From: Corallococcus terminator
GTDB taxonomy: Bacteria > Myxococcota > Myxococcia > Myxococcales > Myxococcaceae
Direction of reading: 5' to 3'
Assembly: GCF_003611635.1 (NCBI RefSeq)
Contig: NZ_RAVZ01000003.1
Coordinates: 1-64,000, forward strand
Length of the DNA stretch: 64,000 nt
A program made the translations under genes and the position numbers. Below are positions 7,053 through 26,703 of the stretch, in pieces; positions within the stretch are counted from its first letter, which is position 1, and every line of letters starts with the position of its first letter. The notes beneath the pieces were generated by a model. It made no database searches and was not told where the DNA came from. It was given only the letters and a program-made list of their open reading frames with translations.

Positions 7053-8498
7053 TCAGCGTGTGGGCTCGCCCTCGGATGTTCCTTTGAAGTCAGCGGCGGA
7101 CAGGCCGTGCCGCTTGAGCAGGTCGTAGAAGTCGCTCCGGTTGCGCCCGGCCATTCGAGCCGCGGCACTGACACTGCCACTGCTGCGGCGCATGGACTCC
7201 GCGAGGTAGGCGCGCTCGAAGGCATCGCGTGCTTCGCGCAGCGAGGGCAAGGCCTCTGCCCCACCTGGAATTCCTGGCAGTTGAGCGCTCTCGGCTGGGG
7301 GGCGCTCCAGCGCCTGACCGAGGCGAGGCACATGTCGCGGTTGAAGCTCGTCCGCGCCGGCCAGGAGCACCGCGGCCTCCATCTCGTGGATGAGCTCTCG
7401 GACGTTGCCCGGCCAGCCATAGCGCTGCAGGAGTTCCACCGTCGCAGGCGCAAGGCGCGGCGGACGCAGGCCATAGCGGTTCGCCGTGCGCTCTAGAAAG
7501 AGCTGCGCGAGCAAGGGGATGTCCTCGAGCCGCTCGCGCAAGGGGGGCAGCTCGATGGGTACCACGTGCAGCCGGAAGTAGAGGTCCTGTCGAAAGCGCT
7601 TCGCGGCCACCTCTTCCGCGAGGTCTCGGTTGGTGGCGGCCACCACCCGCACGTCCACGGGCTCTTCCTCGTCCGCGCCCACGCGCGTGAGCCGCTGCTC
7701 CTGCAGCACGCGCAAGAGCTTCACCTGCACGGACGGGGACGCCTCGCCAATTTCATCCAGGAACAGCGTGCCGCCGTTGGCCGCGCCAAACAGGCCTTCG
7801 CGCTCGCGCACGGCCCCGGAGAACGCGCCCTTCACGTGTCCAAACAGCTCGCTCTCCAGCAGCTCTGGCGGAAGGGCGCCGCAGTTGACGGCGACAAAGC
7901 GCTCCTTGGTGCGGCGCGAGAGCACGTGGAGCATCCGCGCCGCCAGCTCCTTGCCGGTGCCACTCTCGCCGGTGAGCAGGACGGTGGCGTCCGTGGGGGC
8001 AATGCGGGCAATCACCTCGCGCACGCGCGAAATGGCCTCGCTGGTGCCCAGGAGCAGGGGCTCGCCGTCTTCACCCATGCGCCGCCGCAGCTCGGCCACC
8101 TCCCGGCGCAGACGCGAGCGCTCGAGCGCGTGCGTGAGCTTCTGCATGAGCTCGTGGTCGTGAAACGGCTTGGTGAGAAAGCCGTAGGCCCCCTCCTGCA
8201 TCGCCTGCACCGCGGTTTCGATGGAGCCGTGTGCGGTGAGCATGATGACGGACAGCTCGGGAGCACGCTGTCGCGCGGCCCGGAGCACATCCATGCCATC
8301 CATGTCCTCCAGGCGCAGGTCGAGCACCATCGCGTCCACGCGCTCCTGCGCGAGCCTGCGCAGGGCGCCTTTGCCCTCGCTCTCCACGGTCACGTGGTAG
8401 CCGCGTGAAGTCATCCGCATGGACATGAGCTCCGCGAGCTGGAGGTCATCGTCCACCAGGAGCACATGGGGCTGCTGGATGGGGGGCTCATGTGTCAA
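7053..8498 (-). CDS. Sigma54-dependent response regulator (NtrC/GlrR type)
   Basis: A 481-residue transcription activator. The receiver domain (residues 10-125) has acidic pocket D16-D18, phospho-acceptor Asp60 and Lys110. The AAA+ domain follows with Walker A GESGTGKE (177-184), the sigma54-contact loop GAFSGA (224-229; the usual form is GAFTGA) and Walker B FLDE. A C-terminal Fis-type helix-turn-helix contains AARMAGRNRSDFYDLLKR. I chose the TTG at 8498 because GGAGG lies 5 bases upstream; an ATG further up (8588) would put 30 unrelated residues before the receiver domain and overlap the kinase deeply. It overlaps the 3' end of the kinase gene, so the two are co-translated. Confidence 0.85.
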   Translation of the reverse strand: MTHEPPIQQPHVLLVDDDLQLAELMSMRMTSRGYHVTVESEGKGALRRLAQERVDAMVLDLRLEDMDGMDVLRAARQRAPELSVIMLTAHGSIETAVQAMQEGAYGFLTKPFHDHELMQKLTHALERSRLRREVAELRRRMGEDGEPLLLGTSEAISRVREVIARIAPTDATVLLTGESGTGKELAARMLHVLSRRTKERFVAVNCGALPPELLESELFGHVKGAFSGAVREREGLFGAANGGTLFLDEIGEASPSVQVKLLRVLQEQRLTRVGADEEEPVDVRVVAATNRDLAEEVAAKRFRQDLYFRLHVVPIELPPLRERLEDIPLLAQLFLERTANRYGLRPPRLAPATVELLQRYGWPGNVRELIHEMEAAVLLAGADELQPRHVPRLGQALERPPAESAQLPGIPGGAEALPSLREARDAFERAYLAESMRRSSGSVSAAARMAGRNRSDFYDLLKRHGLSAADFKGTSEGEPTR

Positions 8499-9984
8499 GG
8501 CGGCCTCCAGGGGACGTAGGGTCTTCAAGGGGAATCCAGAAGATGAAGGTGGCTCCAGGCCCAGGCGTGTCCGCGAGCGACAGCTCACCCCCGTGCGCGG
8601 TGATCATCTCGCGCGCGATGGCAAGGCCCAGGCCCGTGCTGCGGCGCCCGCCCACCTCGAGGCTCGCGAAGGACCGGAAGATCCACTCGCGCGCGTGCGC
8701 GGGCACGCCTGGGCCCTGGTCCGCGACGGACAACTGGACCGCGGGCAGGGAACTGGCGGCGCCAGGGCGCTTGCGGCTCACCAGCTCACACGAGATGCGC
8801 ACCGTCTTGCCCGCGCTGGAGACCGCGATGGCGTTGCTCACCAGGTTGGACAGGGCGCGCTCGACAAGAGGGTCATCCATGGGCGCACGCACGGGCTTCG
8901 CGGCTGCTTCGTACACCAACAGGACCTTGCGCTCATCCGCTTCAAAGGCGAGGTCCTGAAGGACGTTCTGGACAATCTGGTCCACCGAGGCCCCGGCATT
9001 GCGCTGCAGCGGCTGGCCGGACTGCACGCGCGACAAATCCAACACGGAGGTCACCATGCGGATCTCACGCTCGCACGCTGCCTGCGCGAGCTTCACCACG
9101 CGGGCCTGCTGCGGCGTCAGGGGGCCGATGCTGCCCTCGCCCAGGAGCGAGAGGGCCTCGCGCACCCGGGCCAGCGGCGTGCGAAGGTCGTGGGACACCG
9201 AGGCCACGAACGCGCTCTTGAGCTGGTCCAGCTCCGCCAGGCGCCCACGCATGCGGTCCAGATCCAGCGAGAGCGCGCGCAGCTCCTCGGGCCCGCGCAG
9301 TGGGGGCAGGGGGCTGAAGTCACCCTGGCCAATGCGGCGCGCATGCGTGGAGAGCAGCGCCACCGAGTTCGACACCGCGCGCGCCTGCGCGAAGGCGAGC
9401 GCTCCCGCGGCGAGGATGCCCAGGAGGCCGAAGAGTCCGCCTGAGCGCAGCGCCGACGAGCCGATGGCACGCGCGTGGTCCTCCTTCGCCTGGATGGCCA
9501 GGCGCATGTCCCGCGTGCGCTCGGACCACACCGTGGTGAGGACCTCATCCAACTGCAGCCGCCGCTCACGCAGGGGAAACGACAGCATCGACTCACAGGT
9601 GCCGGCCTGCTCCAATTGCAGGGCGTACTGCACATAGTCCTGGGCGCTCGCGCGGATGCCCGCATCGAGCTGCACCGTGCCGGTGCCGAGCGCGGTCTGG
9701 AGCACCTGGCGTGCGCTGGCGACGGCGCGGTGCACGGTGGGCGCGCTGCTGTCGCGCTGCTCGCAGGCCACCACTCCGCGCCGCACCGCCAGTTCGAGCG
9801 CCCACGCCGCGACGTACACGCGCTGCTCTCGCTCGAAGGATGCGAGCTCCTGCTGGCCCACGCTTGCCACCACCTCGTGGGTGCGCATGAGGCCCACGGC
9901 CATCTGTGAGAACGCCGCCACCAGCAGCGCGGTGACCACCGCGTAGGACAACAGGAGCCGGGAGCGCAGTCGAAGCACCAACAT
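8488..9984 (-). CDS. Membrane sensor histidine kinase (GlrK/QseE-like) paired with the sigma54 regulator
   Basis: A 498-residue HisKA/HATPase kinase. TM1 (about 10-32) and TM2 (about 182-200) enclose a ~150-residue periplasmic helical sensor domain. HAMP follows, then the H box SVSHDLRTPLARV with phospho-acceptor His265. The catalytic domain shows the N box LSNLVSNAI, G1 VADQGPGVP and G2 STGLGLAIAREM. The ATG at 9984 places the first membrane helix at the N-terminus; no strong binding site precedes it, and an in-frame ATG at 10032 would add 16 basic residues. It is divergent from the SulP gene, which makes that transporter a plausible target. Confidence 0.85.
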   Translation of the reverse strand: MLVLRLRSRLLLSYAVVTALLVAAFSQMAVGLMRTHEVVASVGQQELASFEREQRVYVAAWALELAVRRGVVACEQRDSSAPTVHRAVASARQVLQTALGTGTVQLDAGIRASAQDYVQYALQLEQAGTCESMLSFPLRERRLQLDEVLTTVWSERTRDMRLAIQAKEDHARAIGSSALRSGGLFGLLGILAAGALAFAQARAVSNSVALLSTHARRIGQGDFSPLPPLRGPEELRALSLDLDRMRGRLAELDQLKSAFVASVSHDLRTPLARVREALSLLGEGSIGPLTPQQARVVKLAQAACEREIRMVTSVLDLSRVQSGQPLQRNAGASVDQIVQNVLQDLAFEADERKVLLVYEAAAKPVRAPMDDPLVERALSNLVSNAIAVSSAGKTVRISCELVSRKRPGAASSLPAVQLSVADQGPGVPAHAREWIFRSFASLEVGGRRSTGLGLAIAREMITAHGGELSLADTPGPGATFIFWIPLEDPTSPGGRLDT

Positions 9985-10038
9985 GGCGCGCAATCTAACG
10001 CGCTTCCGTGCGCGCGCCCCGTCACTTCGCATGGCCGT

Positions 10039-10098
10039 CTGTCGGCCCCGACAGTGTTGGTCTGAGCCGACAGGGGCCCTGCTGGGATGGACCGACAG
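10039..10098. promoter_or_regulatory. Cluster of CCGACAG half-sites in the kinase/SulP divergent region
   Basis: CTGTCGG-CC-CCGACAG (10039-10054) is a perfect inverted repeat. Further CCGACAG copies start at 10067 and 10092. Repeated half-sites in a 174-base divergent promoter region are typical of activator binding sites, and the TGTC/GACA ends recall the enterobacterial GlrR site. Binding by the neighbouring regulator is inferred. A TTGGCACG at 10128 looks like a sigma54 -24 element but lacks a proper -12 GC. Confidence 0.5.
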
Positions 10099-10158
10099 CG
10101 GGGGCACGCTGCCCTCGGACACGGCGCTTGGCACGACACCTGAAAGACGCCGTCGTCC

Positions 10159-11910
10159 ATGCGTTCGACGACCGTTTTCTCCAAGCGACCTTTCTGGACC
10201 CAGCGTGCGGGCGAGCTCATCCACGGCTGGCGCGAGATGGTGCACCCAAGCAGCCTGCCAGCCGATGCGGCCGCCGGCTTGAGCGTGGCGTGCGTGGCAC
10301 TTCCTCTGAATGTCGCGCTCGCGACCGCGGCGGGACTGCCCGCGAGCGTGGGGCTCGTCTCCGGCGTGGTGGCTGGCATCGTGGGCGGGCTGCTCAGTGG
10401 CAGTCGCTTCCAGGTCACGGGCCCGGAGGCGGCGCTGCTGCCCCTGGCCGCGGCCATCGTGGCGGCGCATGGGGCCGCGGGCCTCGCCATCGCCACGGTG
10501 CTCGCGGGCGCCATGCAGGTGGCGTTGGGGCTCGTGCGCGCCGGGCGGTTCGCGCGGCTCATCCCCCGGCCGGTGGTGATGGGCTTCACGGTGGGCATCG
10601 GGCTCTTGTTGCTCAACACGCAACTGCCGCGGCTGTTCGCGGTGGAGGACACGCACGCGGATGCCGTGGCGCTCGTGATGCAGCGCACCTGGGGCGGGCA
10701 CGTGGGCTGGCTCGGGGTTGCCGCCGGAGCCCTCACGGCGCTGGCCATGTTGACCCTGCCCCGGCTGCACAAGCGCATCCCCGCGGTGCTCGTGGGGCTG
10801 ACGCTCGGCACCGGTCTCATGGTCTGGCTCGGGGCGGGCTACGACGCGGTGGGCGCCTTGCCGCGCTCGCTGCCCATGCCGACGCTGCCGTCCTTCGAGG
10901 GCGTGCACCTCGCGGAACTCTTGCCGGCGGCCTTTGGCCTCGCGCTGCTTGCGTCGCTCGGCTCGCTGCTCGCGACGAGCTCGCTCGATACGCTCACGGG
11001 TGCGCGCACCCACAGTGACCTGGACCAGGACCTGGTCGCGCAAGGATTGGCCAACATCGCGGCCGGACTGTGCGGCGGCTTCCCGGTGATGGGCGCCATC
11101 GTGCGCGCCAGCGCTTCGATTCAAGCGGGCGCGCGCACCCGCGCTGCCTCCGTCATGCATGCACTGTGGCTCTTCGTGGCCATGGCGCTTCTCGCGCCGC
11201 TGGTGGCGCGCATCCCAATTGCCGCACTCACCGCCATCCTGCTGGTCGTGGGGGTGCGGCTGCTCAACCTGGAGGGTCTTGTTGCCATGTGGAATCAGTC
11301 CAAGTCGACGTTGAGCGTGGTGCTCGTCACCGCGCTGGGCATTGCTGTGTTCAATGTGTTTGCCGGCATCGGGGCCGGGCTCGCGCTGGCGACCCTCCTC
11401 TACGTGCGGCGCCATGGCGCCCTGCGGCTGGAGGTGCAGCGGGTGACGGATGTGTCGCAGTTGCAGCGCAACCTGCATGTGCAATCCCTGGAAGCGCCCA
11501 ACGCCCCCCAGGCGCTGGACCTCCTGGTCGCGCGCGTGGGCGGGCCCATCCTGTTCATCAACCACATCAAGCTCTACGATCTCCTCGACGGCCCGCCCTG
11601 GGCGAAGCTCGTGGTCATCGACCTGTCGCGTGTGTCGCTCGTGGACGCCGCCGGTGTGGCGACGCTCAAGTACCTGGCGGAGTTCCTCTCCGTGCGCAGT
11701 GCGCACCTGGCCCTGGTGAATGTGCCGCCCCAGTTGGAGGCCGCGCTGGAGCCGCTCGCGCAACACCTGCTCGAAGCGCGGGTGCACGGCTCGCTCGAGG
11801 AGGCACTCCTGGGGGCAGGCTTCGTGCAGCCTCCCGCGCCCATGGAGCCTGTCGCCCTCCCTGCGTCCATGGCGCCTGTCGCCCGCCCCGCGCCCGCCGC
11901 GCACTTGTAA
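10159..11910 (+). CDS. SulP-family anion permease with C-terminal STAS domain
   Basis: A 583-residue inner-membrane transporter. About 11-12 hydrophobic spans occupy residues 40-420. They include family landmarks near TM1 (AGLSVACVALPLNVALA, TAAGLPASVGL) and QVTGPEAALLPLAAAI. A cytoplasmic STAS domain (about 440-540) contains VVIDLSRVSLVDAAGVATLK, with the Ser/Asp turn typical of the fold. SulP proteins move sulfate, bicarbonate or dicarboxylates; no carbonic anhydrase is fused or adjacent, so the substrate is open. The tail contains near-repeated PMEPVALPASMAPVARP units. Confidence 0.85.
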   Translation: MRSTTVFSKRPFWTQRAGELIHGWREMVHPSSLPADAAAGLSVACVALPLNVALATAAGLPASVGLVSGVVAGIVGGLLSGSRFQVTGPEAALLPLAAAIVAAHGAAGLAIATVLAGAMQVALGLVRAGRFARLIPRPVVMGFTVGIGLLLLNTQLPRLFAVEDTHADAVALVMQRTWGGHVGWLGVAAGALTALAMLTLPRLHKRIPAVLVGLTLGTGLMVWLGAGYDAVGALPRSLPMPTLPSFEGVHLAELLPAAFGLALLASLGSLLATSSLDTLTGARTHSDLDQDLVAQGLANIAAGLCGGFPVMGAIVRASASIQAGARTRAASVMHALWLFVAMALLAPLVARIPIAALTAILLVVGVRLLNLEGLVAMWNQSKSTLSVVLVTALGIAVFNVFAGIGAGLALATLLYVRRHGALRLEVQRVTDVSQLQRNLHVQSLEAPNAPQALDLLVARVGGPILFINHIKLYDLLDGPPWAKLVVIDLSRVSLVDAAGVATLKYLAEFLSVRSAHLALVNVPPQLEAALEPLAQHLLEARVHGSLEEALLGAGFVQPPAPMEPVALPASMAPVARPAPAAHL

Positions 11911-13295: not shown

Positions 13296-13649
13296 TTACC
13301 CCTTCAGTTCGCGCGTCAGCTTCGAGTCCCACGGGCACCAGTGGCTGCCAGGGAGGAACGCACCGCCGGCTTCGTCCAGGTGATCCTCGACGTACATCAT
13401 GTTGGCGTCGCACACCTCGATGGCCATCGCGAAGAACCGGATGGTCGAAGGGTCGATGTGGAACGAGAACTTCGGATTGTAGGGTGCGGTCCTCTTGATG
13501 ATGCGCCCGTGGACATGAACCTCGTTCTTCTCCTCTCCGGCGAGAATGCGGCGCGCATGGGAAATCGTCGACTCGTCAGTCAGCTCAATGACGAATTCGG
13601 CCCCAGGCGAGCTGGGCTGGGTGAAGACGAAGCGGGTGGCGGTTGCCAT
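13296..13649 (-). CDS. Small BP74 N-terminal-domain-like protein
   Basis: A 117-residue soluble protein starting MATATRFVFTQPSSPGAEFV. It continues with ISHARRILAGEEKNEVHVHG, FSFHIDPSTIRFFAMAIEVC and a closing GAFLPGSHWCPWDSKL. I remember this pattern as the BP74 N-terminal domain, named from a Dictyostelium protein and found in myxobacteria; its function is not known to me. The ATG at 13649 has AGGAG 8 bases upstream. The frame stays open for over 370 further codons, but these are Arg/Pro-rich shadow sequence. Confidence 0.65.
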   Translation of the reverse strand: MATATRFVFTQPSSPGAEFVIELTDESTISHARRILAGEEKNEVHVHGRIIKRTAPYNPKFSFHIDPSTIRFFAMAIEVCDANMMYVEDHLDEAGGAFLPGSHWCPWDSKLTRELKG

Positions 13650-14150
13650 TGTGAGGCTCCTTTTGCGGTGGCCGCCGGGTGTAGATGATTGGGTTTTCTC
13701 TGGGAACTGGCTTTGGGGTGGATGGGTGTGTTCGGAACCTGCCAGTGCGATGCGTGGGGGCGCCCTTGCCGCGCCGTGAGCGACTCGACGCGGGGCTCGA
13801 CCCTGCGTTGGCACACAGGTGGGCGTGTGCCGATGAGCACGTATCAGAGGACCGCCCGAGCAGTGAGCCCGGCCGGTGGAGAGGCCGCTTGAGCCCCCTT
13901 GGGGGACACGCCGGCCCTGGCCACGCTCCCATGAGGTGCGCGGCAGGGGCGTGGCGCTCTTGGCTGTGGCGGCTTGAGCCTCGACACCCCTCGGCCCCCC
14001 GTCTGATCGGCCGTGCCCCCGGCGGATGTCGGTCGGACTGCTGGCGGGCTGTGGCGGCGCGGAAGACGGAGCGCTCGGCCGGGATGGGGCCGAGCGCAGG
14101 GGGCAGATACTTCTCTGGGCAAGGGGCATCAAAGGGTATGAGGAATGCCC
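13650..14150. other. 500-base gap holding repeat copy 2, no gene recognised
   Basis: Between the BP74-like gene and the 160-residue hypothetical gene I see only the second dispersed repeat (13912-13990). Open frames here lack ribosome sites and look like degenerate coding noise. The frames over the two repeat copies agree in sequence, so the repeats may be fragments of an old coding sequence. Confidence 0.4.
13912..13990. repeat. Dispersed repeat, copy 2
   Basis: Direct-repeat partner of 11965-12043. Differences are single bases (for example GGCGTGGCG against GGCCTGGTG). No terminal inverted repeats or target duplications are visible. Confidence 0.8.
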
Positions 14151-14633
14151 ATGAGCAATGAGCACACGCCCGCCGAGCCCGAAGTCATGGAGCCTACGTT
14201 CTGGCGGAAGAACGGCTGGACGGCCAAGGTCATCAAGAACGAGGAAGACGACGGCTGGGCCGTGGAGATTCGCAAGCAGGGGATCTCCGAGCCCGTCCTC
14301 ATCAGTCCGTGGGTGATGGGCCGCGATAAGAAGAATCCCAAGCCCTTCGATGCCACGGCCTTCGCGACCTTCGTGAAAACGGCCTCGGAGGTCCTGGACC
14401 GTTCCGAGCGACAGCGCGACCAGGCCATGACCAAGAAGCTCTCCATCGCCTGGGAGGGCCGCTGGTACGAGGTTCGGCTCGAGATCGTGGCTGACGAGTA
14501 TGAGCCCCACGCGCTGCTCTCGGCCATCGACGACGCTGGCGCGACCGTCGCGAAGCATCGCGTGCCGGTGAACTTCAAGTTCACCCGAGACGTCGCCAAC
14601 GAGTGGGTGCGCGGCGGCTTCCGCGAGCCCTGA
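14151..14633 (+). CDS. Conserved-looking hypothetical protein, 160 residues
   Basis: A soluble protein starting MSNEHTPAEPEVMEPTFW. It has a central two-part layout: KNGWTAKVIKNEEDDGWAV at the front and KKLSIAWEGRWYEVRLEIV at the back, so it may contain two related strands-and-helix modules. No family is recognised. The ATG at 14151 is favoured over 14145 because GAGGA sits at the right distance only for the second. Codon use is that of a real gene. It follows repeat copy 2 and has no operon partner. Confidence 0.6.
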   Translation: MSNEHTPAEPEVMEPTFWRKNGWTAKVIKNEEDDGWAVEIRKQGISEPVLISPWVMGRDKKNPKPFDATAFATFVKTASEVLDRSERQRDQAMTKKLSIAWEGRWYEVRLEIVADEYEPHALLSAIDDAGATVAKHRVPVNFKFTRDVANEWVRGGFREP

Positions 14634-14918
14634 GCGGGTTCTCCTACGTTCGCGCCGCGGTGGACGCGGCGCTGCACGTTCAAGTCGAGGGTGATGGGAC
14701 GGGTGGCGCGCGTGTTCCGAGGCCCTCCAGATCCGCGAAAACGTCGAGGCAGGCGGCCTGATTGCGACCAACCTGGTGTCTCATCAATCCGGTGCGGTCC
14801 ACAGGGCCGTGACCTCTCCGCGCTCATCGCCCGCGGGAGCGGACCCGAGCCCCGTGTCATCGATGCCACCACCACAGCCAGTCATCAGCCCTGCGCGCTT
14901 CCGGATGCCGGTGCACGA
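14634..14918. other. Convergent gap, no gene seen
   Basis: Short coding-like scraps occur on the plus strand (for example ENVEAGGLIATNLVSHQSG near 14740), but no start, stop-bounded gene or hairpin terminator can be supported. Confidence 0.35.
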
Positions 14919-17612: not shown

Positions 17613-19082
17613 TCAGTCCTCGTCCCGGACCTGCCTCGCGGCCAGCCCCACCGCCTCCAGGAGCGCGTGGAGGGTCTGTTCGTCGGTGGCGGGGGCCATG
17701 ACGGTCGCGCGCAGCCAGCGCGTCCCCCCGACCATGGAGGACGCCAGGTGGAAGCGGCCGTCGGCGATGAGCCGGTCCCGGAGCGCGACCTGCTTCGGGT
17801 CGCCCTGCGCATCGCGGTGGCGGAAGCAGACCACGTTGCTCTGCGGTTCGAAGGGCGTCTCGAAGTCGGGTCGCGACCGCACCAGCTCCCACAGCCGGTG
17901 CGCGGTGGCGTACCGGCCCGCGACATACCGGCCCAGCCCCGCTTCGCCCCTCCAGGCCAGGTTGAGGAAGAGCTTGAGCCCAAGCTGGGCCTTGGCACCT
18001 TCGACGGTCCGCATCATCAGGTCGGGGCCGCCGCGGTCGTCGTCGAAGAACAGGTAGTCCGCCTCCTGGCGGAACGCCCGGTCCAGGTCGGTCTTGTCCT
18101 TCAGCAGCACGGCCGCCGCCAGCGTGGAGGTCCGCAGCATCTTGTGCGCATCCCAGATGACCGAGTCCGCCAGCTCGATTCCGGTCAACAGCCGCTTGAG
18201 CGTCGGGGCCAGCAGGGCCGAACCCCCGTGCGCGGCGTCGACGTGGAACCAGAGACCGCGCGGGTTGCAGATCCTCCCGATGCTGACGAGGTCATCGTAG
18301 AGGCCGGTGGCGGGCGCGCACGCATTCGCCACGACCGCCATCACCGTGTGTCCCTGGCGCTCCTGGGCCACGACGACCTCGGGGATGGCGCTGGGGATGA
18401 CCCGCCCGATGGGATCACACGGCAATGCCACCACCGCGTCACTGCCGAGCCCGAGGATGGCAGCGGCCCGCGTGATGGAGAGATGACACGACGCCGGTGC
18501 GAGGAGGACCGTCCGCCGTGGCACCCCCGTGTTCCAGGCTTCGGGGAAGGCACGGGCCCGGGCCGCGAGCAGCGCCGTGACGTTGGCCAGCGAGCCCCCG
18601 TTGACGAGCACCCCTCCGGCGGTCCGCCCGGCCCAGCCGACCTTGTCCAACATCCAGTCGATGACCGCCATCTCGACGGTGGCCGCCGCGGCGCCCATCT
18701 CATACAGGGACATGGCGTTGTTCGTGACGCCGTGGATGAGGTCACCCAGCGCGGCCGGAAGGTCGGGGCTCGCGCACTGGTGGGCGAGGTATCCCGGGTG
18801 GTGCAGTCGGGTTCCTTCGCTCAGATAGGTCTCCAGGAAGTCATCGAGCGCCCCTGCATCCATGCCGCCCTCCCGGATCCACGACTGCAATGACAGGCTT
18901 TGCGCCAGCTCCGCCGGTGGCCGCCGCGAGGTCACCCGCGAGCCTCCGAGCTGGCTGTCCTCCACGTAGGCCCGGAGCCGGCGCACCGTCACGTCGACGG
19001 CCGCGTCCCATTCCGACAGCTCCCAGACGCCCTCTGTCGAGGCGGGGCCTGTCGGGAGCGGGTCCTCGGGTCGGTGTGCCAT
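17613..19082 (-). CDS. PLP-dependent group II amino-acid decarboxylase
   Basis: A 489-residue fold-type-I decarboxylase of the glutamate/aromatic/diaminobutyrate family. Landmarks: HPGYLAHQCASPDLP at the substrate entry, VLVNGGSLANVTALLAAR binding phosphate, the PLP-stacking region HVDAAHGGSAL and the Schiff-base Lys314 in WDAHKML. The exact amino acid cannot be told; diaminobutyrate or an aromatic residue are the best guesses. It is followed by no other intact pathway gene, but a broken SDR gene lies just upstream on the same strand, so a small biosynthetic locus may have decayed here. Confidence 0.8.
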   Translation of the reverse strand: MAHRPEDPLPTGPASTEGVWELSEWDAAVDVTVRRLRAYVEDSQLGGSRVTSRRPPAELAQSLSLQSWIREGGMDAGALDDFLETYLSEGTRLHHPGYLAHQCASPDLPAALGDLIHGVTNNAMSLYEMGAAAATVEMAVIDWMLDKVGWAGRTAGGVLVNGGSLANVTALLAARARAFPEAWNTGVPRRTVLLAPASCHLSITRAAAILGLGSDAVVALPCDPIGRVIPSAIPEVVVAQERQGHTVMAVVANACAPATGLYDDLVSIGRICNPRGLWFHVDAAHGGSALLAPTLKRLLTGIELADSVIWDAHKMLRTSTLAAAVLLKDKTDLDRAFRQEADYLFFDDDRGGPDLMMRTVEGAKAQLGLKLFLNLAWRGEAGLGRYVAGRYATAHRLWELVRSRPDFETPFEPQSNVVCFRHRDAQGDPKQVALRDRLIADGRFHLASSMVGGTRWLRATVMAPATDEQTLHALLEAVGLAARQVRDED

Positions 19083-22020: not shown

Positions 22021-23523
22021 ATGGAGCTCAGCGTGCAACGAACGGATGTGATCCGGCTCACCGACGGCCGCCTTCAGCATCACGAGCACTTCGGAGATTC
22101 GTCGCGGGTCGTGTTGCGCGTCAGCGAGCGCTACCGGTTCGCCCTGGAGGTGCTGGCGCGGCGGGACGCGCGTCTTCGTGACGTCGCGGGCCGTGTCGAG
22201 GCGTTGGACGCCGCGACGGCGGAGACCGTGTTCGGCGACCTGCTCGTGCGCGCGGCACTGGAGGCCGCGATCAGCCGACTGGAGACCTCAGGCGCGGACG
22301 GTGCCGCGGGTGAGGAGCTGCCCGGGTTGCTGGGTGAGGCCCTGGCCTGCGTCGCGCGAACGCCGGGCCGGTGCCTCTCCCGATCGGCGATGGGACGCGA
22401 CCTGTCCGTGGGCCCCGGGGGCAAGGTCTGGGTCTGGGACCTTCCGGAGGAGTCGACGCCCCTTCGCGACAGGCTGCGCGAGAGCATCCGCACGGGCTTC
22501 ATGCCGGGCGCCGAAAGCAGCGTCGAAATCATCCGTCCCACCCCGGCCATGGTCGCGGGACTGGAGCGCGCTTGCGCGCTGATCCAGCGGCTGGTGCCGG
22601 AGATGACGGCCAGCGTCTTCCGGCACCTCCACTCCATCGCCATCGCGAACATCCGTGGCCCCCGGGGCCGGATGTTGACGGGCTCCGGAGGGGACGGCAC
22701 CCCGTGCATGATCTTCATCGACCCGCTCGAGCTGGAGAACCCCTGGGATACGGCGGGCCACATCCTGCATGAGGCGGTGCACCTCAAGCTCTCCGACCTG
22801 ATCCGCACGGGCGCCATCGTGACGGATGACGGCCCCGTCGAGCTGGCCTGGGGCCGGAAGACCTCGCTGTCGAACAGCATCTTCGCCTACCACGCGTACG
22901 TGCACATGCAGGTGTTTCGCGCCGCCGTGGAGCACCTCGGGCCCGACTGTCATGCCGAGTTCGGCGCGCCCCGGGACTACGACGCGCCGGCCCACGCGAT
23001 GTCGGTGGTGAACAACGACACCCGCAAGCCCTTCTCCCGCGCGGAGGAGCGGCTGGACTTCCTGCACACCCAACTGGAGGGCCCCCTGGCGTCCCGGGTG
23101 ACGCCGTATGGACGCGAGATGAACGCCTGGCTCTGGGAAGCGATTCGTCCCCTGGAGGCCCTGGGGGCGGTGCCGTCTGGCGGACCGCCTGGACGGGCCG
23201 TGAAGCCTCCGGTGCTCACGCTCGGGCGGGCCCCGTCTCCGGCGCGCTATCGCCAGGGCCGGGACCTCTCCCTGCGCCGCTCGCCGTCCTCCGAGGTGCT
23301 GTTCGCCCTGGACCCGGGCTCACGGAAGATCGTCACGCTGAACCTCGCGGCCTGGCTGGCCTTCGAGCTGTGCGACGGCAAGACCGAAGAAGAGATGCTG
23401 TCTTCCTATACCGCCTCGCTGGGACTCGGTGCCGAGCGCGCCTGGGCCCAGCTCGCGCCGACCCTCGAGGGACTCGTGTCGAGTGGAATGATTGAACCGG
23501 TCTCCGAAGGGCGGGTGTCGTGA
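22021..23523 (+). CDS. HExxH-type peptide-modifying enzyme (putative alpha-KG-HExxH beta-hydroxylase) with C-terminal PqqD-like domain
   Basis: A 500-residue protein. The central domain carries AGHILHEAVHLKLSD with HEAVH at 250-254. Downstream come FAYHAYVHMQVF, whose His residues may complete the metal site, and HAMSVVNND. This matches the TIGR04267 group (HExxH putative peptide modification), recently described as 2-oxoglutarate-dependent peptide beta-hydroxylases. Residues about 420-495 form a PqqD/RRE-like domain (VLFALDPGSRKIVTLNLAAW, then CDGKTEEEML), the leader-peptide-binding module. The ATG at 22021 was chosen because it aligns with the paralogue's start. It overlaps the next gene at the stop codon. 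Confidence 0.75.
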   Translation: MELSVQRTDVIRLTDGRLQHHEHFGDSSRVVLRVSERYRFALEVLARRDARLRDVAGRVEALDAATAETVFGDLLVRAALEAAISRLETSGADGAAGEELPGLLGEALACVARTPGRCLSRSAMGRDLSVGPGGKVWVWDLPEESTPLRDRLRESIRTGFMPGAESSVEIIRPTPAMVAGLERACALIQRLVPEMTASVFRHLHSIAIANIRGPRGRMLTGSGGDGTPCMIFIDPLELENPWDTAGHILHEAVHLKLSDLIRTGAIVTDDGPVELAWGRKTSLSNSIFAYHAYVHMQVFRAAVEHLGPDCHAEFGAPRDYDAPAHAMSVVNNDTRKPFSRAEERLDFLHTQLEGPLASRVTPYGREMNAWLWEAIRPLEALGAVPSGGPPGRAVKPPVLTLGRAPSPARYRQGRDLSLRRSPSSEVLFALDPGSRKIVTLNLAAWLAFELCDGKTEEEMLSSYTASLGLGAERAWAQLAPTLEGLVSSGMIEPVSEGRVS

Positions 23524-24977
23524 TGGGTGCTTCGGACGTCATCCACGCGGCGGACCGGGCCCTCATCGCGCAGCCCTCCTTCGGAGACTCGCCGAGGATC
23601 CTCGCGAAGGTCCTGACCCGCTATCGCTTTGGCCTGGAGTTGTTCGCCGAACGGCTGCCCTCCCTGGCGCGCGCGGTGACCACCGTGGAGGCGCTCGACG
23701 ATATCGACGCACGCCGGATCTTCTTCGACCCGCTGGTCCGGCTGACGCTCGAACAGGCCTTCTCCGACCTGGAGGCCGGCCGGCTGACATCGCCCCATCC
23801 GCTGGAGGAGATGCTGCCCGGAGCGCTGGAGGCGCTTCCCCTGGGGCTGTGCGAGTCGCGCATGCCGTCGCGCTTCCGCGTGGGCACGGAGGCCCCGAAG
23901 TGGCTGTGGGACGTGGCCCAACGCGGTGATGCCTACTCCAAGGCGCTGCACTCGGCGTTCGACGGCATCTTCCTGACGAACCCCAAGAGCGGCGGGAAGC
24001 TGCTGAGCCCGGATGCGTCCGCCCAGGGGAAGATCAACGACTCCATCGCGCTGCTCTCCCAGTTGCTGCCGCATTCAGGGGCGAGCGCGCTGACGCACAT
24101 CGAGGCCATCGCGCTGCTCAGCGCCCGGCTCGAAGGTGGCACCGTCCTGTCCGCCGCCGGTGGGGACCTGACGCCCTCCACCATCTTCCTGTCGCTGACG
24201 GACCTGGGGAATCCCTGGGATGTCGCCGGGTGTCTGCTGCACGAGGGGCTTCACATGAAGCTCTTCGACGCCACCCGTTCGGTGTCCATCGCGGCGAAGC
24301 CGGAGGAGACCATCCAGGTGCCCTGGCGCGACGTCCGCTGGTCCATCGTCCGCACGGTGTTCGCCTACCATGTGTATGTCCACCTCGCGCTCTTCAAGGC
24401 CGCCGCGCTTTCGGCGGACCGGTCGCTGATTGAACGCTTCGGGGACCCGTCCGCCTACGCCACGCGCCCGCATGCGATGTCGGTGGTGAACAACGACGGT
24501 GGCTCTCGCTTCGGGCGCTCGGTGGACCGGGCGCGCTATCTGGGTGAACAGCTCCAGACGGAGTGGTCGCACCTGCTCACGCCGCAGGGGCGGGACTTCG
24601 TCCGGTGGCTGAGTGAGTCCCTGGCACCCGTCGACCGCGAGGTGTTCGGCAAGGCCTCCGCAGGGCGCGCGGGCGCCCCCGACAAGGCGGCCTACCAGAA
24701 GGTTCGCGGTCTGCGGGCCCGCCCCTCCACCCGGGGTGAGTGCCTGATGGTTTTCTCGCCGGACGCGCCAAGGCTGCATTGGCTCGATCTGAATGCGTGG
24801 TTGATCTTCGAACTCAGCGATGGCCGCACGTTCGCTGAGATGGAGCGGGCGTACCTGGAGGCGATCGGGGGGCGTGTTGCTCCCGATGAAGCACGCCGCC
24901 AGTTGCGCACGGGGCTGGAGACGCTTGTACGCAGTACCCTCGTAGAGCCAACCCGGCAGCAAGGAGACATCTCATGA
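23523..24977 (+). CDS. Second HExxH-type peptide-modifying enzyme, paralogue of the preceding gene
   Basis: A 484-residue paralogue with the same order: helical N-terminal region, AGCLLHEGLHMKLFD with HEGLH at 240-244, FAYHVYVHLALF, HAMSVVNND, and a C-terminal PqqD-like domain (LHWLDLNAWLIFELSDGRTF). Sequence outside the motifs differs widely, so the two enzymes probably act on different residues or in sequence. The ATG at 23523 overlaps the previous stop by one base, and a GTG at 23520 is an alternative. Its own stop overlaps the start of the precursor gene, so all three are co-translated. Confidence 0.75.
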   Translation: MGASDVIHAADRALIAQPSFGDSPRILAKVLTRYRFGLELFAERLPSLARAVTTVEALDDIDARRIFFDPLVRLTLEQAFSDLEAGRLTSPHPLEEMLPGALEALPLGLCESRMPSRFRVGTEAPKWLWDVAQRGDAYSKALHSAFDGIFLTNPKSGGKLLSPDASAQGKINDSIALLSQLLPHSGASALTHIEAIALLSARLEGGTVLSAAGGDLTPSTIFLSLTDLGNPWDVAGCLLHEGLHMKLFDATRSVSIAAKPEETIQVPWRDVRWSIVRTVFAYHVYVHLALFKAAALSADRSLIERFGDPSAYATRPHAMSVVNNDGGSRFGRSVDRARYLGEQLQTEWSHLLTPQGRDFVRWLSESLAPVDREVFGKASAGRAGAPDKAAYQKVRGLRARPSTRGECLMVFSPDAPRLHWLDLNAWLIFELSDGRTFAEMERAYLEAIGGRVAPDEARRQLRTGLETLVRSTLVEPTRQQGDIS

Positions 24978-25126
24978 ACAACGGATCGCAGTGGCTTGAG
25001 ACCGTGAAGGACCTCCTGGCCAAGAAGGAGCAACTGCAGGAGCCGACCGTGACGTGCGGGTCGAGTGCGGAGCGCCAGTGGTGGCCGCCGTACATCGTCT
25101 CCGACACGGCGAAGAAGGAAGACTGA
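24974..25126 (+). CDS. Putative RiPP precursor peptide, 50 residues
   Basis: An ATG overlapping the TGA of the enzyme gene (ATGA) with AAGGAG 7 bases upstream gives a 50-codon gene. Residues 1-24 form a charged amphipathic leader-like helix (NNGSQWLETVKDLLAKKEQL). After Pro24 the segment TVTCGSSAERQ leads to WWPPYIVSD (36-44) and a Lys/Glu/Asp tail. Leader plus short aromatic, Pro-rich core directly behind two RRE-bearing modifying enzymes is the signature of a ribosomally made, modified peptide. Which residues are modified is unknown; V26, T27, C28, W36, W37, Y40, I41 and V42 are candidates. I recognise no known precursor family. Confidence 0.75.
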   Translation: MNNGSQWLETVKDLLAKKEQLQEPTVTCGSSAERQWWPPYIVSDTAKKED

Positions 25127-25153
25127 TTCAGCACCGGTCGGTCCGATGATCCG

Positions 25154-25190
25154 CCCGCCGTGTCCGCGCCCCCCTGGCGGGCGCGGCGGG
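25154..25190 (+). terminator. Hairpin between precursor and oxidoreductase genes
   Basis: CCCGCCG (25154-25160) pairs with CGGCGGG (25184-25190), with additional inner GC pairing, and no T-run follows. This fits an attenuator or 3' stabiliser that makes the precursor more abundant than the downstream enzyme. Confidence 0.45.
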
Positions 25191-25251
25191 CCCCGGACCG
25201 GATGTCGTTGCAGTGTGGACCTCCCAGACCCGCCGAGAGGGCATCCAGCGA

Positions 25252-26703
25252 ATGAGCACCTATGACGTCGTGGTGGCGGGAAATGGCGCGCTGGGTCTTG
25301 CGACCGCGCGTGCCCTGTCGCTCCAGGATCCGAACCTGCGCATCGCCGTGGTGGGCCCTGCGGGCAGGCCCGGTGGAGCCTCCGGCGCGGCCGGGGCGAT
25401 GCTGGGCTGCTACGGCGAGGTGACGGCCCCGCTGCTGCGCACCGCGCCGGGCCGTGCGCGCCATGCCCAGGGCGTGCTCGCCTCTCGCCTCTGGCCCGAG
25501 TGGCTGGAGGGCTTGAACAGCGAGCTGCCCGTGGAGGACCACGTGCGGCTCGATGCCGGCACCATCGTGTTCAGCAACGCGAAGTCCGGCACCATCGAGG
25601 ATGAGAACTACGCCGCCATCCAGCAGGCGGCGACGGCGGAGGGGGAGCCCTTCGAGGAGCTGGATCCAAACCATGTTCCCGGCCTGTACCCCGCGGAGGA
25701 CTGCCGGCCGAAGCGGGCCCTGTTCCTGCCGCGCGAAGGGTCGGTGGACGCAAGCCGCCTGCTGCGGGGACTCACGCGGGTGCTTGAGCAGTCCGCGAAG
25801 GTTTCGCTCATCGACGGGGCGGTCAAGGCGCTCGACGTGAACGCGGGGCGAGTCACCGGCGTCCGGCTGGAGGATGGTCGGACGCTCGCGGCCGCCCAGG
25901 TCGTGCTCGCCATGGGCGTCGGGACGCAGGCCGTCCTCGACGAGCTTCCGGACCTGGCCCGCCGCATCCCGCGCATCTTCAGCGGAGGCGGGACGTCGCT
26001 GCTGCTCCAGGTGCCCAGGACCCAGCTCAAGCACGTGGTGCGGACGCCGAACCGCGCGTTCGCCTGCGGCCTCCACGGCATGCCCCGCGCGGGCAACCAG
26101 CTCTACTTCGGCGCGACGAACATCCTGATGGCGCGGCCCATGCTGCGCACCACGCCGGCCGACATGTTCTTCCTGCTCGAATGCGTCCTGGAGCAGATCG
26201 ACCAGGACCTCTGCGCGGCGCAGCTCGTCGGCTGGCAGGCCGGCAACAGGCCCGTCACGGTGGACACGTGTCCCCTCATTGGCCCCACGTCCGTGGAAGG
26301 CCTGTGGTTGCTCACCGGCACGTACCGGGATGGCCTGTTCCAGTCGCCCCTGCTCGGCCAGCACCTGGCGCGGCGGATGCGAGGCGAGCCCGGGCTCGTC
26401 AACGAGGACTTCCTTCCGGAGCGCAAACCCATCTCACTCTACACGCTGCCGGAGGCGCGGGCGGAGGCGCTCAAACACTATCTGGCCATGGGCTGGGAGC
26501 ATGGCATCCGCCTGCCCAAGGTCGGCTGGCACCGCTCCTTCCCCCGGTTCTACCAGCAGATGCTGGACTCGCTGTACGACGAGCTGGGGGAGGAGGAGTT
26601 CGTCCTGCCACCGGAGCTGCTGGCGATCGTCGACGGCAACCGCGCGGCGATGGTGCCGTTCTTCCGCAACTACTACGCGGAGGTCCGCAAGGCCTGGGCG
26701 TGA
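25252..26703 (+). CDS. FAD-dependent oxidoreductase (DAO/ThiO-type) of the peptide cluster
   Basis: A 483-residue flavoprotein. The dinucleotide-binding motif DVVVAGNGALGLATARAL is at the N-terminus (G-x-G-x-x-G), with a DAO-family C-terminal region including DTCPLIGPTSVEGLWLLTGT for the flavin. Members oxidise amines or alcohols to imines or carbonyls. The residues after about 400 (GWEHGIRLPKVGWHRSFPRF and beyond) exceed a standard DAO fold and may form a substrate lid. The same strand and 125-base distance behind the precursor suggest a role in peptide maturation, inferred only. The ATG at 25252 sits 11 bases after GAGAGG. Confidence 0.75.
   Translation: MSTYDVVVAGNGALGLATARALSLQDPNLRIAVVGPAGRPGGASGAAGAMLGCYGEVTAPLLRTAPGRARHAQGVLASRLWPEWLEGLNSELPVEDHVRLDAGTIVFSNAKSGTIEDENYAAIQQAATAEGEPFEELDPNHVPGLYPAEDCRPKRALFLPREGSVDASRLLRGLTRVLEQSAKVSLIDGAVKALDVNAGRVTGVRLEDGRTLAAAQVVLAMGVGTQAVLDELPDLARRIPRIFSGGGTSLLLQVPRTQLKHVVRTPNRAFACGLHGMPRAGNQLYFGATNILMARPMLRTTPADMFFLLECVLEQIDQDLCAAQLVGWQAGNRPVTVDTCPLIGPTSVEGLWLLTGTYRDGLFQSPLLGQHLARRMRGEPGLVNEDFLPERKPISLYTLPEARAEALKHYLAMGWEHGIRLPKVGWHRSFPRFYQQMLDSLYDELGEEEFVLPPELLAIVDGNRAAMVPFFRNYYAEVRKAWA

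Follow-up and report, generated by a model that had tools for sequence, protein, structure and literature searches.

A compact group of four genes in Corallococcus terminator, a predatory myxobacterium of the soil, very probably forms a RiPP unit in which HExxH oxygenases are guided by RRE domains. It lies within the window, by which we mean the whole analysed stretch of 64,000 nucleotides (NZ_RAVZ01000003.1, positions 1 to 64,000). Read as a whole, the unit would be a minimal RiPP pathway, namely RRE-guided HExxH oxidation of the peptide core and then capping by an enzyme related to Orf1; we give this reading a probability of about 0.6. The genes, their families and folds, their conservation and co-occurrence and the retained catalytic residues are matters of observation. 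The enzyme families are already known, and NCBIfam offers no model for the precursor family.

All four genes are encoded on the plus strand. Two HExxH-type enzymes of the TIGR04267 family come first, E1 (22021-23523, 500 residues, alpha-ketoglutarate-dependent by prediction) and E2 (23523-24977, 484 residues), followed by the 50-residue precursor peptide (24974-25126), recognized from its translation and its orthologues, and by a FAD enzyme of 483 residues (25252-26703, with 25252 as the best start), which is Orf1-like in a phmmer comparison with 8gri and predicted to be an N-formimidoyl/iminoacetyl synthase. Start/stop overlaps (ATGA) join the genes of E1 and E2 and those of E2 and the precursor, in agreement with the translational coupling to a short gene that an earlier note on this DNA had described. 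Elsewhere in the window, a 491-residue protein whose C-terminal domain is BP74_N (E 1.6e-47) is encoded at 13296-14771 on the minus strand, near a PLP-dependent decarboxylase at 17613-19082.

A search of 193 relatives placed the E1 and E2 pair in 15 Myxococcota genomes of the genera Corallococcus, Myxococcus and Archangium, the window included, and in 15/15 the precursor and the flavoprotein accompany the pair in unchanged order. The neighbourhood check proposed in the earlier note thus recovered the same four-gene order in other myxobacteria. Because the flanking genes vary between groups and genera while this order holds, the conserved unit consists of four genes. No radical SAM enzyme, protease, transporter or exporter and no immunity gene belongs to it, so that the lack of the first three noticed earlier applies to the conserved unit as well. 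An empty-site comparison showed that the YhhN gene adjoining the cassette sits elsewhere in cassette-free congeners, so that the edge of an insertion could not be defined cleanly. One record, BNCN01000001.1, bears the title Comamonas sp. KCTC 72670; it is apparently identical to G055:C1, a contig that groups in the myxobacterial genus g24 and contains the complete cassette, and its title looks wrong.

The cassette is also present in 6/297 genomes of the Lysobacter family, where the flavoprotein gene is found on the opposite strand. In L. enzymogenes it is located between dnaB and alr. All six Lysobacter loci (L058-L060, L092-L097) carry a class I SAM methyltransferase gene, recognized by Pfam matches, between the precursor and flavoprotein genes (for example L059:7705-8598, plus strand), which has no counterpart in the myxobacterial cassettes. 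A further variant, g12, comprises three myxobacterial genomes with a single E2-like enzyme and a separate RRE gene.

Both enzymes score well above the curated NCBIfam cut-off of 40 bits for TIGR04267 (E1, 76.7 bits, E 2.2e-21; E2, 68.7 bits, E 5.9e-19), which bears out the family membership suggested beforehand, and they are the sole matches to this model in the genome. They share 35% identity over 500 columns. The motifs by which they had been recognized as paralogues are all present: HEAVH at residues 250-254 of E1, HEGLH at 240-244 of E2, and FAYHxYVH and HAMSVVNND in both. AlphaFold2 models built from alignments of the window proteins and their relatives (pLDDT 87 for E1 and 85 for E2) place a catalytic fold at residues 18-379 of E1 and 13-371 of E2. 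This fold matches ChlBHExxH (8s5f; Z 23.4 for E2, 22.9 for E1) and SjiH (22ob; Z 23.1 for E2, 22.4 for E1), and a profile match to ChlBHExxH (E 1.4e-8) aligns the HExxH motif and the downstream histidine H287. In the phylogenetic tree, E1 and E2 fall into two distinct clades (support 100/100), and since both clades contain proteins from myxobacteria and from Lysobacter the two-enzyme form is older than these groups or has moved between them as a whole. Every member of the family has E2, and the E1 paralogue is confined to two-enzyme loci; its branch is long, which would fit a shift in substrate site. Distant HExxH pairs in two other genomes (G086 and G015, about 25-30% identity) were not counted, as those genomes contain no precursor of this family. 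The pair in G086 (L050, reverse complement 7347-11400) follows a short ORF that encodes a double-glycine-like site (...DLDVVIGGLASRDAVGTCGGTYVSCGSTYTAPEQ...) and possibly represents another RiPP type.

The C-terminal domains of the two enzymes (residues 408-496 of E1 and 389-479 of E2) had been described as PqqD-like, a description that is right for the fold and falls short at the level of the Pfam model. E1 reaches 19.1 bits against a gathering threshold of 23.4 (E 0.0017), the Lysobacter E1 reaches 23.1 bits, and the Pfam search returned no PqqD match in E2. The modelled domains nevertheless resemble PqqD (Z 8.1 for E2, 8.6 for E1), and their best fold match is TbiB1, solved with a leader (Z 10.8 for E2, 10.6 for E1). 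An independent sign that the RRE is a separate functional unit comes from the Lysobacter E2 and the g12 variant, in both of which it is encoded by a gene of its own.

The precursor is composed of a leader (residues 1 to about 24), a core with VT (26-27), CGSSA, ER (33-34), QW (36), WP (38) and PY (40), and a short variable tail (41-50). Its orthologues were found at 21 two-enzyme loci and at three one-enzyme myxobacterial loci, with the core kept and the leader and tail differing. Between genera, dN is 0.07-0.09 and dS 0.34-0.61 (dN/dS about 0.1-0.3), and a profile of the precursor matches exactly the 18 enzyme-bearing genomes among 195 Myxococcota searched. Judged from these substitution rates, the gene is under purifying selection and is not a chance ORF; together with its recurrence only where the enzymes occur, this upholds the earlier identification of a real precursor. 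The motif ERxWxPx[YFH] is common to all precursors: in an alignment of 18 of them from three phyla, E33, R34, W36 and P38 never vary and position 40 holds Tyr, Phe or His. Ahead of this shared core, Gly29-Ser30 is conserved in the myxobacterial and Lysobacter precursors. Trp37 and Pro39 occur together, always in two-enzyme precursors and never in one-enzyme precursors. Neither NCBIfam nor Pfam contains a family model for the precursor of the window, nor NCBIfam one for its relatives. The recurrence of the motif beside the same enzymes in distant bacteria suggests that the ERxWxPx[YFH] peptides make up a family of modified peptides not described before.

A smaller version of the system was detected in Actinomycetes. 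Among 299 genomes around one hit, nine HExxH-RRE loci were found (the starting locus included), and in 9/9 a 41-43-residue ORF of the type MPTQ...VxTDxxxERAWxPx[FY] lies directly upstream of the enzyme gene. Two types of Streptomyces plasmid likewise encode HExxH-RRE proteins (28-32% identity), each preceded by a 45-residue ORF with ERAWVPAY. As far as gene content tells, the minimal form is thus one HExxH-RRE enzyme with its precursor; the description of the cassette as a minimal type holds for a four-gene unit, and a still smaller form exists. The only other gene common to the nine Actinomycete loci encodes a SARP-type (BTAD) regulator, a family assigned from the protein sequence and an annotated neighbour. 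A ferric-siderophore-type ABC transporter is encoded beside 3/9 of them. On the Streptomyces plasmids (L082, L083), the one-enzyme unit adjoins a class I lanthipeptide cluster of the FDLD type that includes a sulfotransferase.

The fourth protein had been taken for a DAO-type flavoprotein with a further oxidizing role. The family assignment is correct (Pfam DAO, E 2.1e-41), but the generic role gives way to a more specific one, as the top-scoring solved structures are without exception those of Orf1, an enzyme from BD-12 biosynthesis whose entries bear the name N-formimidoyl fortimicin A synthase. The phmmer match to 8gri is full length (E 5.9e-94, 39% identity over 475 aligned residues), and glycine oxidase follows as the next-best solved relative with E 1.6e-11. 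In Orf1, glycine is oxidized at the FAD, for which Arg342 is needed, and a second-site Cys281 forms an N-O-S adduct before transfer onto an amine; Cys281 and Glu426 are needed for the product and not for glycine oxidation (PMC10156733). The flavoprotein residues C272, R333, R359 and E416 match Orf1 C281, R342, R368 and E426, and Orf1 T298 and F316 are kept as well. Cys281, Arg342 and Glu426 are conserved in 21/21 cassettes and in five paralogues. A plain glycine or D-amino-acid oxidase is ruled out as the best match by this homology and these residues. The acceptor-site residue Glu312 of Orf1 is not conserved: Ala303 stands at its position, where the aligned chain 8gri itself has Ala, presumably as an E312A mutant, the wild-type residue being taken from the literature (PMC10156733). 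The E312A variant of Orf1 still makes two of its products, while the product bearing the long beta-lysine arm is lost (PMC10156733).

The five paralogues (L115-L119, from G057, G015, G012, G004 and G003) are 50-53% identical to the flavoprotein, retain the catalytic residues and belong to myxobacteria without the cassette; at least three lie inside or beside NRPS/PKS genes. The Orf1-like family thus probably decorates natural products generally. In the tree, the cassette flavoenzymes separate from the NRPS/PKS-linked paralogues with weak support (64/68). No Orf1-like gene is present at the one-enzyme loci, and because of this absence and of the opposite strand in Lysobacter the flavoenzyme could serve something else.

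From these observations we infer a series of reactions, with their sites, their order and a final product. The RRE fused to each HExxH enzyme would hold the N-terminal leader of the precursor. E2 would then oxidize the shared core with Fe(II), alpha-ketoglutarate and O2, and it is likely that the oxidation falls within ERxWxPx[YFH]. Beta-hydroxylation of residue 40 (Tyr, Phe or His) or of Pro38 would be the most likely reaction, since the reported hydroxylation targets of HExxH enzymes are His, Asp, Phe, Gln and Pro (PMC13060819). E1 would probably act on Trp37 or Pro39; this division of labour between the shared motif and the extra Trp/Pro is suggested by the fixation of W37 and P39 together only in two-enzyme loci. 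The leader would be removed by a protease encoded elsewhere before capping, and the free N-terminus is an assumption, as the unit contains no protease gene. Finally, the Orf1-like flavoenzyme would oxidize free glycine and move a formimidoyl or iminoacetyl group to a peptide amine, most likely the new N-terminus. Known Orf1 acceptors include a glycyl amine (PMC10156733), and cleavage before Gly29 could, speculatively, expose an amine of this type. We rate such a transfer of a glycine-derived group onto the peptide as about as likely as not. A wider proposal is offered more tentatively: the ERxWxPx[YFH] peptides with their RRE-fused HExxH oxygenases would constitute a new RiPP family of Actinomycetota, Myxococcota and Lysobacter, whose myxobacterial and Lysobacter branch would carry the first glycine-derived N-formimidoyl or iminoacetyl group known on a ribosomal peptide, installed by NOS-bridge chemistry. 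A limited literature search found no formimidoylated RiPP and no HExxH RiPP of Lysobacter.

Other readings concern mainly the last steps. The HExxH enzymes could hydroxylate the core while the flavoenzyme, similar to ThiO or DAO, only oxidizes the modified peptide or a released amino acid without any capping. The DAO fold, a match to the ThiO model (E 9.6e-28, though far below the curated cut-off) and the loss of Orf1 E312 are consistent with such a role, which we regard as unlikely given that the full-length homology to Orf1 is far stronger than that to glycine oxidase (6e-94 against 1.6e-11) and that Cys281 and Glu426, which Orf1 requires for transfer but can do without when it oxidizes glycine (PMC10156733), persist in 21/21 cassettes. 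On account of the Orf1 homology and these key residues, we favour a glycine-derived cap over a further round of peptide oxidation. Plain hydroxylation by the HExxH enzymes is likely and not certain, because members of this group are also able to cleave the backbone of a peptide (PMC12636437). One or both enzymes might cleave oxidatively as PflC/PosC do, which would free the variable tail and generate a C-terminal amide around residue 40. At this end of the peptide, such cleavage would stand in for the protease that the unit lacks. There is a precedent in this enzyme family, in a cluster that also lacks a protease (PMC12636437), and the short unconserved tail after the core and the protease-free unit would fit; no fixed ARMD-like motif follows the core, however, and other family members only hydroxylate (PMC13060819), which makes cleavage doubtful.

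The nature of the product can also be viewed differently. A peptide-derived cofactor, metal binder or signal, kept in or near the producer, would account for a core motif that is nearly invariant across phyla, unlike that of most bacteriocins, and for a unit with neither transporter nor immunity gene, and the siderophore-type transporter beside three of the nine Actinomycete loci points the same way. SARP-type regulators are typical of secondary-metabolite clusters and stand at all nine of these loci, however, and Orf1-like enzymes are known from antibiotic pathways, so that a retained product rather than a secreted antibiotic seems quite improbable. The HExxH motif and the zincin-like fold could further suggest plain zinc peptidases whose substrate is a small host peptide. 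This is very improbable indeed, as TIGR04267 is a family of peptide hydroxylases, the nearest fold is that of an alpha-ketoglutarate oxygenase and the fused RREs indicate peptide tailoring.

The pathway of RRE-guided core oxidation and subsequent capping would be one of the smallest by which a ribosomal peptide is modified, and its enzymes have a predicted substrate grip built in. The strictly conserved target motif and the natural one- and two-enzyme versions predict which residue is touched by each enzyme, and the conservation of the core across phyla raises the question of a common target for the peptide. Formimidoyl and iminoacetyl chemistry has its known examples in aminoglycoside-type antibiotics, which it protects from acetyltransferases. 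Should the flavoenzyme cap the peptide, antibiotic-type chemistry would enter ribosomal peptides in the form of a genetically portable N-terminal cap.

Each part of the cassette resembles a known system. The lasso-peptide B1 RRE (TbiB1, 5v1v) and PqqD (5sxy) have the same fold as the C-terminal domains of E1 and E2 (Z 8-11), which differ in being fused to HExxH enzymes and in a sequence below the Pfam PqqD cut-off. ChlBHExxH (8s5f), an alpha-ketoglutarate-dependent beta-hydroxylase of the HExxH type that is joined to a radical SAM enzyme, shares the catalytic fold; E1 and E2 have no radical SAM partner, possess their own RRE and are about 15-17% identical to it. Orf1 (8gri, 7xqa) acts on a streptothricin-type antibiotic (PMC10156733), whereas here its relative adjoins a ribosomal-peptide gene and has Ala in place of E312. 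PflC/PosC of Pseudomonas are, like E1 and E2, HExxH enzymes of a RiPP cluster without a protease gene, but their partners (MNIO-nitroreductase, GNAT and transporters) are absent from this cassette, and the NHLP leader, Gln run and ARMD of their precursor from this precursor (PMC12636437). The nitrilobacillin cluster contains an MNIO, a nitrile synthetase, M16 peptidases and a transporter, unlike the cassette described here; its HExxH enzyme PesO beta-hydroxylates a proline of the RiPP core, and this proline occurs only alongside PesO (PMC13060819), much as Trp37 and Pro39 go with E1.
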